Assembly: GCF_003326795.1 (NCBI RefSeq)
Contig: NZ_JPWI01000006.1
Coordinates: 186,001 to 250,000 of the forward strand
Direction of reading: 5' to 3'
From: Thalassospira profundimaris
GTDB lineage: Bacteria > Pseudomonadota > Alphaproteobacteria > Rhodospirillales > Thalassospiraceae
DNA length: 64,000 nt
The notes beneath the pieces are model-generated. The model worked only from the letters and a program-made list of their open reading frames with translations, did not search any database and had not been told where the DNA came from. Made by a program: the position numbers and the translations under genes. Within the stretch, counting starts at the first letter, position 1. Every line of letters begins with the position of its first letter. This document shows positions 8,772 through 13,807 of this stretch, in pieces.

Positions 8772-11700
8772 TTAATCGTTGTGTCGGCTGGTGAGCTGTC
8801 TGGTGGTTTGGTCAAGTCTTTCGGCCAGAACACGGATCAGCTGAACCGCTACCGCCTGATCCTGTCGAACCAGGCCGAGGAACTCGGTTTTATCGAGTTT
8901 AAGGACGGTCATGTCGTCGACCGCACGGATGGTTGCAGACCGCGGGGCGTCGACCAGAAGGGCAATTTCACCAATGACTTCCTTGGCGTGAACATCGCGC
9001 AATTTCAATGTCTGATGTTCTTCTGTGGTCAGCCAGATTTCACCGCGCCCCGATATGACGATAAAGGCGGCGTCGCCGGGATCGCCCTGTTTGACCAGAA
9101 CCTCGCCATGTTTGAAGGTCAGGCGCGGGCTGGTAAAGGCCAGAAGTTTGATGACGCTCGGGTCCAGACCGGCAAACAGCGGAATGGTTCGAAGCAGTCT
9201 GACCTCCTGATCGATGTTGCCATCCATAAAGATGGCGGCATCATCTTCGGCTTCGGTGGTCTCGCTTGTTCCGTCTTCGCTGTGGCTGCGGCGTTTGACC
9301 AGCTTGCCATTCGACATATGCAGGAATGTGTCGAACTTTTCATTGTCCTGATCATCACCATCGACCCAGATCAGGCTGGTATTGTCATTTTCACCGGTCA
9401 GATAATTGATAACACCTTCGCGGGTTTCACGATCAAGGGCAGAAAGTCCTTCGTCCACGACGAGAAGATCCGGGTTTTTTATAAGGGCACGGACGAGAGC
9501 GATTTTCTGGCGCAAGGTTTGTGACATGCGACTGCCGCCGACGCCAACCTGACTTTCAAGGCCGAGCGCGACCAGGCCTTCATAAAGGCGGCCTTCATGG
9601 GCAATTTCAAACAGTACCTCGCCAACACGTTCTTCCGAATGGGCTCGGCCATAGGCGAAGCGACCAAACAGAAGGTTGTCGATGATGGGGGCGGCGGGGG
9701 CATAGCCGTCTGCTTCGAAGAAGTCGATATGTTTGGACAGTTCTTCGGGCAGATTGGCCCGAATTTTCGGTCGGGCCTTAAGGACAAGATCACGGAATTC
9801 ATCATCGATGACGCGCAAACGGTGACGTGCCGGTGTGATTTGCATGGCAACATCAATCAGGTGCAGACGGTCTTCGTTACGGATGTCATCAACCGCAACA
9901 CCATCTGTGCGTTTGAGGATGTTTTTGACATCAGGAATCTCATCGGCCGAGACGAAGCTGTAACGATCGAAAAATTCGTGTCCGGGGGGAAGTCCGGTAA
10001 ACAGTTCGATCATAAGATCAAGCGTTTCGCGTCCCATATTGACCATCTTGTCATACAGGCCGTTCTCGCGAAGGCTTTGCTGAATATAGGGATGGGACAG
10101 GAATTCGAAGCGCTTGAAATCGGTGCGTGACGGCGAACCGAACATCAGGTTCACGCCAACAGGGGCGTTGTCGTTGTACTTTTCGATGTCAAAGGGTTCG
10201 ACAAGATCGGAAAGTTGACGTTCGGCAAGGATTGCCTTAAGGCGCGGGCGGACATCAAGAACCGCTTCAACAAGTTCGGGCCGGTCTTCGGCATTGATCC
10301 GGCGTGAAAGACCGATGCGATAAATGTCACGATCCAGTCCGACAACTTCAAGCAGACGAAGAAGTTCACTTTGCAATTCGTCGACGGATTTGTAGCCGGG
10401 CCCTACATAGTCAATCCACTCGGCTGACGGATCATAAGGGATGTTCCCCGACATCCTGATCTCGTCATACATTTCACGCGTCAGTTTCCACGGCAGTTCC
10501 GTGGGATCAGATAGTTCGACAGCCTCAACAAATTTCGGAAGCGGATATTTGAGGTCTGCATCGGCTTGTTGCGCGCTCTGTTCAAGCCTGGAAACCTCTT
10601 TGCCGGTTTTTTTCTTTTCTGCCTTCTGGTCAATGATGACCGGGCGATGTTTGAGGCCATAGAACAGGTTGTCAGCAATGCTGCCGTTAAACAGATAGGC
10701 ATCAGCCCCGACATAGGCGAGGCGTTGACCAATGATCGAAGACGGGAGTGTCGTGGCGTCTAGGTCGCTGAACTGAATGCGTCCGCTTGTCGGATCAAGA
10801 ATGCGTGCAAGCAAACGCGCGAGCTGTGACTTGCCGCTGTCTGAAGAACCGGTCAAAAGGGCATTGCCCGGCAATGCCATGTTAAAGGACACGTTTTCTA
10901 CAACGCGGGTGCCATCATCATCAATCCAGGACAGGGCGCTGACATCCAGCGGGCCGGCAAGTGCCGGTGATTGCTTCACGCTCAGTTGATGTTCCGGGCC
11001 GAGATCGGGCAGTTCGAACTGTTCATGCAACTGGTCGTATTTGATGTTGGCATCGGCGAGGCGCTGATAATAGGCCAGAAGTTCTTTCCAGGGGGCGGAC
11101 ATGTCCTTGTAAGCGGCAAGGGCTGCAACCAGCGCACCGAAGCTGAGATCACCGATGATCACCAGATAACCGCCAATGGAATAGAAGAAGAACGGCGTGA
11201 TCTGGGCAATAAAGTTATTGAGAAACTTGATAAAGAATTTGCGGTAATAGATTTCCTTGCGGATATCGAAAATCCGGCCAAGGCGCTGGGTGAAGTGGGT
11301 CAGTTCGAACCCGCGGGTATCGTTGGCGCGGATATCGGTGGCGCCACCTACTGCCTCGCCAATATGTTCCGACATCCGGCGCACATTTTGCACGCGTTGT
11401 TTGCCAAGCAGGTTTACCCGGCGTTGCAGTTTGGGAATCAGATAGCCCTGCAGCGGATAAAAGGCGACCGCGGCAATTCCCATCAACGGGTCCTGAATAA
11501 AGATAAAGGCCGAAATCGTAATCAGAATGCCGCCCTGATAAAGCGGTAGAGAAAATGCCTCGCCAAAGAAGCCGCCCAGCGGTTCGGCCTCGGCGGTGAT
11601 CATCGAAACGATTTCGCCCTGACTGGTTTTGCGAAAATGCGGTAAGGGAAAACGCAGAACCCGATCAAAAAGCTCATAGCGCATCCGGCGCAACATGCGC

Positions 11701-11987
11701 TCGGCCATGACGCCCTGATAGACATTGATGAAATATTTGAAGCCGCCATTGACGAAAACCAGCGCCAGAAAGATCGCCGAGAGCGCAAACAGATATTCGA
11801 TCTGGTTCAGGGGAGCGCCAAGAATGTCATAAGGTGCACCGGCCCCGCCAATCGCTTCGTTGACGATTTGTTTGGGCAGGTCGAGAGAGTAATACAGGAA
11901 CGGAAACGAAAGCAGCGTCACCACTGTCAGGATGATCTGCTGAAGGCGACTATGGCGCCAGATATAGGCAAAGACCGATTTTGGCAT
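8772..11987 (-). CDS. ABC transporter with expanded, degenerate ATPase domain fused to a cNMP-binding domain
   Basis: A very large (1071-residue) membrane protein. Residues 1-320 form an ABC exporter-type membrane domain. Walker A is GSSDSGKS (380-387), and Walker B with D-loop is VVDEGLSALD (about 843-852). Between them lies about 330 residues of extra sequence. The Q-loop glutamine is lost (YVGAD), the signature LSGGQ reads MSQTL, and the H-loop histidine is absent (LIWVDGDD). The extra sequence contains repeats of the helical subdomain start: SIADNLFYG (436-444), APVGVNLMFG (608-617), APIIDNLLFG (766-775). Residues 935-1060 are a Crp-type cyclic-nucleotide-binding domain with an intact-looking phosphate cassette (IGEIALL then PRSAT). 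ATG 11987 is preferred over GTG 11993 for spacing from GGGA. The substrate is unknown. It is followed by a small membrane gene and preceded by a metallo-hydrolase gene. Confidence 0.85.
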   Translation of the reverse strand: MPKSVFAYIWRHSRLQQIILTVVTLLSFPFLYYSLDLPKQIVNEAIGGAGAPYDILGAPLNQIEYLFALSAIFLALVFVNGGFKYFINVYQGVMAERMLRRMRYELFDRVLRFPLPHFRKTSQGEIVSMITAEAEPLGGFFGEAFSLPLYQGGILITISAFIFIQDPLMGIAAVAFYPLQGYLIPKLQRRVNLLGKQRVQNVRRMSEHIGEAVGGATDIRANDTRGFELTHFTQRLGRIFDIRKEIYYRKFFIKFLNNFIAQITPFFFYSIGGYLVIIGDLSFGALVAALAAYKDMSAPWKELLAYYQRLADANIKYDQLHEQFELPDLGPEHQLSVKQSPALAGPLDVSALSWIDDDGTRVVENVSFNMALPGNALLTGSSDSGKSQLARLLARILDPTSGRIQFSDLDATTLPSSIIGQRLAYVGADAYLFNGSIADNLFYGLKHRPVIIDQKAEKKKTGKEVSRLEQSAQQADADLKYPLPKFVEAVELSDPTELPWKLTREMYDEIRMSGNIPYDPSAEWIDYVGPGYKSVDELQSELLRLLEVVGLDRDIYRIGLSRRINAEDRPELVEAVLDVRPRLKAILAERQLSDLVEPFDIEKYNDNAPVGVNLMFGSPSRTDFKRFEFLSHPYIQQSLRENGLYDKMVNMGRETLDLMIELFTGLPPGHEFFDRYSFVSADEIPDVKNILKRTDGVAVDDIRNEDRLHLIDVAMQITPARHRLRVIDDEFRDLVLKARPKIRANLPEELSKHIDFFEADGYAPAAPIIDNLLFGRFAYGRAHSEERVGEVLFEIAHEGRLYEGLVALGLESQVGVGGSRMSQTLRQKIALVRALIKNPDLLVVDEGLSALDRETREGVINYLTGENDNTSLIWVDGDDQDNEKFDTFLHMSNGKLVKRRSHSEDGTSETTEAEDDAAIFMDGNIDQEVRLLRTIPLFAGLDPSVIKLLAFTSPRLTFKHGEVLVKQGDPGDAAFIVISGRGEIWLTTEEHQTLKLRDVHAKEVIGEIALLVDAPRSATIRAVDDMTVLKLDKTEFLGLVRQDQAVAVQLIRVLAERLDQTTRQLTSRHND

Positions 11988-12076
11988 TCGCACGTCCCGT
12001 ATGTTGCATTGGAACTTTATCGTCCCTGTCGCTCGTTTTTATTGGGTAGTGTGCAGATTACGCGGAGCCGGTCCGA

Positions 12077-12856
12077 TCAGCCAAGATCGAAACTCTGTCC
12101 CGGCTCAATAAATCCGCAAAATCCATCTGCCTTGGCATCCGGTTTGTCATATGCCTGATAATGATAAAGCCACATCTTTGCTTTCACCTCGGCGGGCAAT
12201 GTGACCAGTTCGTCATAATGGGCATGCACACCGGAATGTCGTGGCCCCAATTCACAATCCTGAAAAATCATATCTGCTTTACGATACAGCGACATATGGG
12301 CGTCAGGATTGAAAATCGCATCTGTTGTCAGGAAAAAGGACTTCTTTTCTCCACGCCCGAACAGGGCATAGGAAAACATCGTGGATTCGTTGGTGACAAT
12401 GTGTGGGACAGGGATGATATCAAAATGCAGCCCCTGCCAGTCAAAGCCGGTTTTGGCAACAAGCGGCAATACGTCGAAATAGGACGATAACTGGCTGTTG
12501 CCGTGATCACTGGTCTCAAGACCGCCACGAAGCGAATGTTCCCACAGGGGGTCAAGCAGTTCCTTGACCGCAAGCAGTTTGGCGCGGTGACCGTCAAAAA
12601 TGAAATAGTTGGCGAGCGCCATCCATTCCAGACCACCGATATGGTCCGAATGCAGATGGCTGATATAGACCGCGTCAAAGTCATTTGGCATGTAGCCGAG
12701 ATTGCGCAGCGAGTGGCGCGCATCTGAACCACAGTCAATCAAAAGACGATGCGGTTGTTCGTTACCCGACGGGGTCGTTTCCAGAACCATGTTGCTCTGA
12801 AAGTTTTCGGCGGCCATGCAAAAGGCCGAGCCTGTCCCCGCAAACGTAAGCTTCAT
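12077..12856 (-). CDS. Metallo-beta-lactamase-fold hydrolase (RNase Z/phosphodiesterase-like subgroup)
   Basis: A 259-residue soluble hydrolase. The metal motif HLHSDH spans residues 67-72, with further ligands at His152 (VPH), Asp179 (TTDA) and His211 or His213 (HAH), so a two-metal site is likely complete. The N-terminus (MKLTFAGTGSAF) is that of the RNase Z-like group, which also contains cyclic-nucleotide and other phosphodiesterases and arylsulfatase-like enzymes. It is too generic to assign a substrate. It lies 89 bases upstream of the ABC-CNBD gene on the same strand. An enzyme acting on the nucleotide sensed by that protein is a tempting but unproven idea. Confidence 0.82.
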   Translation of the reverse strand: MKLTFAGTGSAFCMAAENFQSNMVLETTPSGNEQPHRLLIDCGSDARHSLRNLGYMPNDFDAVYISHLHSDHIGGLEWMALANYFIFDGHRAKLLAVKELLDPLWEHSLRGGLETSDHGNSQLSSYFDVLPLVAKTGFDWQGLHFDIIPVPHIVTNESTMFSYALFGRGEKKSFFLTTDAIFNPDAHMSLYRKADMIFQDCELGPRHSGVHAHYDELVTLPAEVKAKMWLYHYQAYDKPDAKADGFCGFIEPGQSFDLG

Positions 12857-12988: not shown

Positions 12989-13807
12989 TCAGTTTCTTGC
13001 GGAATCCTGTTGCGGATTTACCGCGTTTTGCGCGGAGGAAAGTTTGCTCATTTCCTGACGTAATGCGCGGAGTTCCTGCATGATTTCTCGATGATCAAGT
13101 TCGATCTCGTCACGGGTCTGCTTTTCCTCGACATCGACATGGGACGACATTGCATCAACCACGATAGCGATGAAGAGGTTCAGCACCGCAAAGGTCGTCA
13201 CCAGAATGAATGGAACGAAAAACAGCCATGCCAGCGGATAAGACTCCATCACCGGGCGGACAATTCCCATCGACCAGCTTTCAAGCGTCATGATCTGGAA
13301 CAGGGAATAAAGGGATGCACCGATATTGCCAAACCATTCCGGGAAGCCCTGACCAAACAGCTTGGTTGCCATGACCGCCGATACGTAAAAGACCAGTGAC
13401 AGCAGTGTCAGAACCGAAACCATGCCCGGGATGGCGCGCATCAAAGCTTCAACCACCTTGCGCATGGAGGGCACGGTCGAGATCAGGCGGAATGCACGCA
13501 GGATACGAAGGGCACGCAAGACCGACAGTCCCTGGCCTGCCGGAAGCAGGGTGATGGCGACGATGGTAAAGTCAAAAACATTCCAGGCCCGTTTGAAAAA
13601 TGCCAGTCGATAGACGGCAAGCTTCATCAACAGTTCGATGACAAAGATCGCAACGGCAACCTGATCAAGAAAATGCAGGATCGTTCCGGCTTTTTCCATC
13701 ACGGTCGACGAGGTTTCAAAGCCAAGGATCACCGCATTCAGGGCGATGACGGCTGTGATGAAGTTTTTAAAGCGGTTGGATTCTACGATCCGGCGAAGAA
13801 TGTCCAT
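12989..13807 (-). CDS. Bacterial voltage-gated sodium channel (NaChBac/NavAb family)
   Basis: One-domain six-helix channel of 272 residues, expected to assemble as a homotetramer. The S4 voltage sensor carries arginines every third position (Arg98, 101, 104, 107). The pore has the selectivity filter TLESWSM (174-180), the same as in the sodium-selective NavAb and NaChBac channels, without the extra aspartates of engineered calcium-selective forms. S6 ends near VVDAM (about 216-220). The C-terminal tail (about 225-260) is a charged coiled coil, as in this family. In known bacteria such channels are linked to motility, chemotaxis and pH homeostasis. The neighbours are not functionally linked. 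Confidence 0.93.
   Translation of the reverse strand: MDILRRIVESNRFKNFITAVIALNAVILGFETSSTVMEKAGTILHFLDQVAVAIFVIELLMKLAVYRLAFFKRAWNVFDFTIVAITLLPAGQGLSVLRALRILRAFRLISTVPSMRKVVEALMRAIPGMVSVLTLLSLVFYVSAVMATKLFGQGFPEWFGNIGASLYSLFQIMTLESWSMGIVRPVMESYPLAWLFFVPFILVTTFAVLNLFIAIVVDAMSSHVDVEEKQTRDEIELDHREIMQELRALRQEMSKLSSAQNAVNPQQDSARN

Follow-up and report, generated by a model that had tools for sequence, protein, structure and literature searches.

An alphaproteobacterial family of ABC-fold membrane proteins with a tripled helical subdomain, a decaying ATP site and a cyclic-nucleotide-binding domain

The ATP site is the usual defining feature of ATP-binding cassette (ABC) proteins. A large insertion between the Q-loop and the signature of the ATPase domain is known from the ABC ATPases UvrA and SMC/Rad50. 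These inserts are not known to repeat the helical subdomain, and both kinds of protein are active ATPases, unlike what we propose below. The fusion of an ABC exporter to a cyclic nucleotide monophosphate (cNMP)-type domain has been reported for HetC, where this domain is required for function (PMC10986499). In HetC the domain lies at the N-terminus; the protein also has a C39 peptidase, and a catalytic residue of its ATPase is essential. The HetC domain reportedly bound ppGpp, whereas no significant protection was seen with cAMP. The importers MetNI, ModC and OpuA are likewise controlled by small molecules through an added cytoplasmic domain, but they are ATP-driven importers with other regulatory folds (PMC10710835). 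Here we describe a protein with an exporter-type transmembrane domain (TMD), a tripled helical subdomain and a C-terminal cNMP domain. It is encoded in a 64,000-nucleotide stretch of Thalassospira profundimaris (contig NZ_JPWI01000006.1, positions 186,001 to 250,000; hereafter the window). The exporter fold, cNMP domains on transporters and large inserts in ABC ATPases are known already; the combination of a tripled helical subdomain, an ABC ATPase in decay and a retained cyclic-nucleotide site was not found in the open-licence papers searched for it.

The open reading frame (ORF) occupies window positions 8772-11993 on the minus strand and encodes 1073 amino acids from a GTG codon. An alternative ATG two codons inside this start accounts for the end at 11987 given in the preliminary description. 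Its closest named relatives belong to the genus Thalassospira (91% identity). Pfam placed ABC_membrane (PF00664) at residues 70-292, ABC_tran (PF00005) in two stretches and cNMP_binding (PF00027) at 959-1045; C39 peptidase was absent from the six Pfam matches up to E 1. The TMD, of the MsbA-like exporter type, comprises residues 1-340 (10974-11993, minus strand, as are all parts of the gene). The ATPase core is split. The first half, residues 345-450 (10644-10961), contains Walker A (GSSDSGKS, 382-389) and has Ala430 at the position of the Q-loop Gln, and the second half, residues 841-905 (9279-9473), contains Walker B (LLVVDE) and lacks the H-loop His. Residues 915-1073 (8775-9251) form the C-terminal part with the cNMP-binding domain.

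An AlphaFold2 model of the whole protein was built from 80 sequences (mean pLDDT 78.9, pTM 0.68). Residues 4-907 of this model matched ABC exporters with Z about 24-25 in the VIA structural comparison, and Pfam and VIA thus agreed that exporter-type TMD and nucleotide-binding domain (NBD) folds are both present in one chain. Since the modelled ATPase domain covered 226 of the 239 residues of the ComA NBD (Z 25.4), the ATPase fold is whole around one long insertion, which lies between the Q-loop and the signature. The large insert noted in the preliminary description is real, but it measures about 310 residues and not about 330. MsbA-type proteins (type IV, ABCB-like) gave the best NCBIfam and PDB matches, the NCBIfam score being 160.9 against a cut-off of 602 bits. 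The protein shares the TMD fold and NBD core of these exporters. Unlike them, it has further copies of the helical subdomain in its insert and a cNMP domain at the C-terminus, and it has lost the Q-loop, signature and H-loop residues; in most of its relatives the Walker motifs are lost as well. We consider this overall architecture very likely to be correct. No description of it was found in searches of open-licence PMC papers aimed at this architecture, nor in passing in searches on related subjects, in keeping with the initial remark that none was known. If confirmed, this would be, to our knowledge, the first tandem triplication of an ABC helical subdomain.

Each repeat unit closes with a helix carrying an Arg (R582, R741 and R835) that is invariant among 80 of 80 sequences. 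Unit 1 (residues 425-596; 10206-10721) consists of the Q-loop strand, the motif NLFYG (442-446), helices at 537-562 and the closing helix, with a linker of low model confidence at about 452-505. Unit 2 (597-755; 9729-10205) has a strand, NLMFG (615-619), helices and the closing helix; H724 of this unit is likewise invariant. Unit 3 (756-840; 9474-9728) has a strand, NLLFG (773-777), helices, the degenerate signature MSQTL (823-827) and the signature helix. The V/I-x-N-L-x-F/Y-G pattern was thus present three times as first noticed, although at about 439-446, 612-619 and 770-777 and not at 436-444, 608-617 and 766-775. The matching lead-ins RPRLKAIL and RPKIRANL also stood. They contain R582 and R741, which precede N615 and N773 by 33 and 32 residues, respectively. 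Among 102 distinct family sequences, R582, R741, N615 and N773 were present in all, and N442 and R835 in 101.

A family alignment was scanned against itself as 2016 pairs of overlapping 60-residue profile windows, with E-values uncorrected for the number of pairs. All 56 pairs scoring above 25 joined one repeat unit to another, and they did so at a small number of constant offsets. Outside these, the highest score was 21.0, from a pair that aligned seven columns and itself had the offset of the repeat; the next was 17.5. The repeat is therefore the sole signal of that strength in the self-scan. Units 2 and 3 matched with an E-value of 1.6e-17, while the matches of unit 1 to unit 3 (5.6e-7) and to unit 2 (1e-6) were shorter. 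The window pairs at offset 93 correspond to the LLEVVGLDRD and SLRENGLYDKM helices that had been paired by eye, the helix at about 544-563 in unit 1 matching 637-656 in unit 2. When compared with five ordinary exporter NBDs from the same genome, all three units aligned to the same stretch following the Q-loop (E-values of 5.7e-9 for unit 1, 3.1e-22 for unit 3 and 0.0057 for unit 2, the last with an hhalign probability of only 6.5%, yet in register). In this profile comparison the order and register of elements, from the Q-loop strand to the signature helix, were those of the ABC helical subdomain. The tripled pattern between Q-loop and signature was thus borne out by the self-scan and the NBD comparison. 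The helical subdomain is triplicated, and tandem duplication of the segment from Q-loop to signature is the best explanation of the repeats.

Structure prediction agreed with the repeated order of elements. In units 2 and 3 the models had a strand, then a short helix containing Asn-Leu-x-Phe/Tyr-Gly, then more helices. A separate model of residues 447-790 was built from 75 sequences (pLDDT 84, the first ~40 residues being poor), and its four best of 15 VIA rows were ABC exporter chains. Insert residues of about 603-746 were aligned there with MsbA 425-498, IrtAB chain A at about 736-807 (twice) and TM287/288 chain B 436-510, stretches that we take to be the helical subdomains of these proteins. 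The Z values were only 4.0-4.6, a range in which chance matches are possible, and a Foldseek search of the isolated insert model against PDB returned no match at E <= 0.001. In addition, the closing helices resembled the signature helix weakly by sequence (E 0.033 and in register for unit 2, out of register for unit 1), and the remainder of unit 1 (506-596) was poorly conserved, with only 8 of 91 columns at least 90% conserved among 57 members outside the Thalassospira group. The insert could then be an unrelated helical domain and the repeat an alignment artefact, as might also be argued from two members whose inserts gave no Pfam match at E <= 0.01. Such an artefact is hardly credible when every high-scoring window pair links one repeat unit to another at a constant offset, secondary-structure elements recur in the same order and ABC exporter chains head the structural list. 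For the models, we find that the place and order of the aligned elements make the low Z values persuasive.

The motifs of the ATP site were surveyed in the same 102 sequences, of which 24 form the Thalassospira group and 78 are other members. No member had Walker A, the Q-loop Gln, the signature Ser, the Walker B Asp and Glu and the H-loop His together, and none had LSGGQ. In the Thalassospira group, Walker A (G....GK[ST]) and Walker B with its catalytic Glu were retained in 24 of 24 members, the Q-loop Gln, LSGGQ and the H-loop His in none, and the signature Ser in 23. This agrees with the degenerate Q-loop, signature and H-loop noted earlier. The Walker motifs, described then as kept, are kept in this protein and its group but mostly degenerate in the other 78 members, so their retention is special to the Thalassospira group. 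Among those 78, a proper Walker A was found in two, the Walker B Asp in 14 and the Glu in 39, and Walker A never occurred together with a Walker B that had its catalytic Glu. The Q-loop Gln (19 of 102) and the H-loop His (23 of 102) were confined to these 78. The members examined from Rhizobium, Sinorhizobium and Ruegeria had also lost the Walker A Lys.

Conservation pointed the same way. Among 57 members outside the Thalassospira group, columns at least 90% conserved made up 91 of 338 in the membrane domain, 26 of 159 in unit 2 and 19 of 85 in unit 3, against 6 of 106 and 3 of 65 in the two halves of the ATP site. The TMD was the best-conserved part, with 58.5% mean identity to these 57 members. 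In a FastTree tree of the TMD alone, which had mixed support, included few rows of the Thalassospira group and was used only for placing it, this group was nested inside the family. Separate lineages therefore seem to have lost separate parts of the ATP site. The family is likely to be largely a pseudo-ATPase, and we infer that ATP hydrolysis is absent. Judged by their motifs, the Thalassospira proteins may still bind ATP, and because Walker A and B are kept, binding or slow hydrolysis may persist in them.

The cNMP-binding domain matched PF00027 with an E-value of 6.1e-20 (71.4 bits, cut-off 27.5). The preliminary description had called it Crp-type. A cNMP-binding domain it is, but its best solved matches were PKG and PKA chains and not Crp. 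The phosphate-binding cassette, GEIALLVDAPRSATIRA (residues 1008-1024; 8922-8972), is intact-looking as claimed, with Glu and Arg present. Of 71 family loci, 38 have the domain fused to the ABC protein and 25 have it as the product of the following gene; none was found at the other eight, four of which end too early to judge. The cassette pattern GE..R[STA]A was kept in 56 of the 63 domains. Five relatives (L060, L063, L066, L080 and L091; ORFs of 1183-1212 residues) have a C-terminal GGDEF-type domain after the cNMP domain, without the GGDEF motif. One genome (G154) holds three divergent copies (L127, L128 and L129) with strongly decayed ATP sites and altered cassettes.

Genes of putative cyclic-nucleotide metabolism were found nearby. 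Directly upstream, on the same strand (12077-12856, minus), lies a gene for an MBL-fold protein of the Apyc1/YhfI phosphodiesterase kind, with an HLHSDH motif, a PF23023 match (4.6e-31) and matches to solved Apyc1 structures. The likeness to these class II phosphodiesterases is that of this neighbour and not of the ABC protein. Relatives of this kind cleave cyclic mononucleotides, and YhfI of B. subtilis prefers cAMP and cGMP (PMC9117128). Such a gene was directly upstream on the same strand at 23 of 23 Thalassospira-group loci and at none of the 48 others, some of which have little upstream sequence. Class III cyclase-like genes were found near eight of the 37 non-Thalassospira loci longer than 9 kb (a raw count in which several loci are close relatives). 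Pfam confirmed the cyclase domain at seven of these, the eighth (L077) being outside the Pfam scan. Because of the phosphodiesterase-like neighbour and these cyclase genes, cyclic-nucleotide control, which had been suggested from the domain itself, gains independent context, and we regard it as likely. Two divergent members adjoin cyclase-like genes (L133, 1361-3115; L135, 1724-3439), one with a Fer2 and one with a CHASE3 domain; L135 is without a detected cNMP domain. Beyond the phosphodiesterase-like gene, an ORF of 272 amino acids that lies farther upstream in the same orientation (window 12989-13807) appeared ion-channel-like by eye.

The family also tracked a glycosyltransferase. In 190 alphaproteobacterial genomes, the insert profile (E <= 1e-10) was found in 59 and a GT28-type glycosyltransferase (E <= 1e-60) in 57. 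Both occurred in 56 genomes, the ABC family only in three, GT28 only in one and neither in 130 (Fisher's P about 3e-43, shared ancestry being ignored). The two genes lay within 10 kb in 37 of the 56 co-carriers, farther apart on one contig in six and on different contigs in 13, which in draft genomes may still mean nearby genes. In relatives the gene is often beside GT28-like and GT4 glycosyltransferases, a histidine phosphatase and a methyltransferase, for which we give no counts, the neighbour clusters having merged sense and antisense ORFs. Glycosyltransferases adjoined the family gene on annotated rhizobial plasmids, and the Ruegeria locus examined was without them. In this genome a cluster of GT28, two GT4-type enzymes, a histidine phosphatase, a second GT28-like enzyme and a further ORF was found on contig C33 (174108-179434); this last ORF had no Pfam match and appeared deacetylase-like by eye. 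In PMC11103875, pRL110056 of R. leguminosarum is named as an O-antigen enzyme that matters for root colonisation; judged by its number, this tag probably belongs to the corresponding rhizobial cluster, but it could not be mapped to a gene here. No paper fitting the R. etli names redA/redB was found in the literature search. A sample of 398 genomes from across the phylum contained 31 carriers, every one of them from the same class, the Alphaproteobacteria (whose share of the sample is not given), and three named carriers (L067, L072 and L077) are labelled as gammaproteobacterial metagenome-assembled genomes. The protein is likely to serve a surface-glycan pathway.

Taking all this together, we give about even chances to the reading that this ABC membrane protein, whose family is largely one of pseudo-ATPases, is controlled by a cyclic nucleotide and acts in a surface-glycan pathway. 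The layer from Q-loop to signature helix contacts the membrane domain in ABC exporters. We suggest that in this family the ATPase domain has turned mainly structural, and that this layer, triplicated in tandem, would have been retained with the membrane domain as the ATP site decayed. cAMP or cGMP would bind the cNMP domain at the C-terminus or, where this is a separate protein, the product of the adjoining gene, and the enlarged helical layer would relay the signal to the coupling helices. The membrane domain might then open or close an ATP-independent path for a lipid-linked sugar, or flip it, the sugar being a product of the glycosyltransferases that occur with the family. The signal would be cleared in Thalassospira by the Apyc1/YhfI-like neighbour. 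The triplication, the motif loss, the conservation of the cassette, the co-occurrence with GT28 and the adjacency of the phosphodiesterase-like gene were shown by computation; the ligand, the direction of control, the substrate and the lack of hydrolysis are inferred. More specifically, and only tentatively, the triplicated subdomain may be a lever through which a cyclic nucleotide, and not ATP hydrolysis, gates the TMD as a scramblase or channel for lipid-linked glycans. The family keeps the TMD and the tripled subdomain while the ATP site decays, and the cyclic-nucleotide site is mostly kept instead. If the proposal is true, a second messenger can run or gate an ABC fold, and cyclic nucleotides would be tied to the surface glycans of rhizobia and marine bacteria in a way that can be tested.

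Several findings weigh against this proposal. Four of the 71 loci have enough sequence and show no cNMP domain (L071, L079, L134 and L135), and the cassette is degenerate in seven of 63 domains (L095, L127-L131 and L133), all outside the Thalassospira group. The co-occurrence test does not account for shared ancestry, three carriers are without the GT28 enzyme, and the glycosyltransferase cluster of this genome is on contig C33 while the ABC gene is on C35. The 1073-residue protein itself retains Walker A and B. This retention, together with the intact catalytic Glu throughout its group, would suit a conventional MsbA-like exporter driven by ATP, in which the ATPase domain is merely unusual, the insert is decoration and the cNMP domain has a modulating role. 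The best matches are to MsbA-type proteins, though far under the NCBIfam cut-off, and a flippase would suit the glycosyltransferase partners. However, the Q-loop Gln, LSGGQ and H-loop His are missing from the whole group, the tested set of motifs is complete in none of the 102 members, those examined from Rhizobium and Ruegeria lack the Walker A Lys, and TMD-only relatives exist. We therefore consider such an exporter unlikely.

A non-transporting scaffold or receptor is somewhat easier to defend, although still doubtful. Here the TMD would anchor and dimerise the protein, the tripled layer would dock glycosyltransferases and the cNMP domain would switch the complex, in some relatives together with the degenerate GGDEF domain. 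The signs of a pseudo-ATPase, the five relatives with a GGDEF-type end and the tight co-occurrence with GT28 fit this, but the peak of conservation in the TMD suggests that a substrate passes there, and a docking layer is not needed by the TMD-only relatives of the copper clusters. As to the earlier suggestion of a possibly non-transporting protein, the TMD being the best-conserved part and the tie to a glycosyltransferase make transport or flipping without ATP no less likely than an absence of transport. The Apyc1-like gene adjoining in Thalassospira and the presence of PycTIR among the weaker cNMP-domain matches (6e-9) could instead recall a Pycsar-like antiphage effector, whose cNMP domain would sense an infection signal and whose TMD would harm the membrane while the neighbour tunes the response. 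This is very improbable, as none of the genome's ten PF00211 cyclase-domain matches is on contig C35 with the ABC gene, and the tie to glycosyltransferases speaks against it.

TMD-only proteins of 399-434 residues were 41-44% identical to the membrane domain of the 1073-residue protein. They were found in copper-resistance clusters of a T. lucentensis and a Phaeobacter plasmid, with no adjoining ABC ATPase gene annotated. The TMD-only relative in this genome (L002, 1426-2625) has similar neighbours, its copper-type cluster being judged by eye, whereas the clusters of L097 (7788-8987) and L098 (7764-9068) are annotated. These relatives support the idea that the membrane domain is able to work without an ATPase of its own. 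The L097 protein is annotated as "ABC transporter ATP-binding protein" despite consisting of the membrane domain only.

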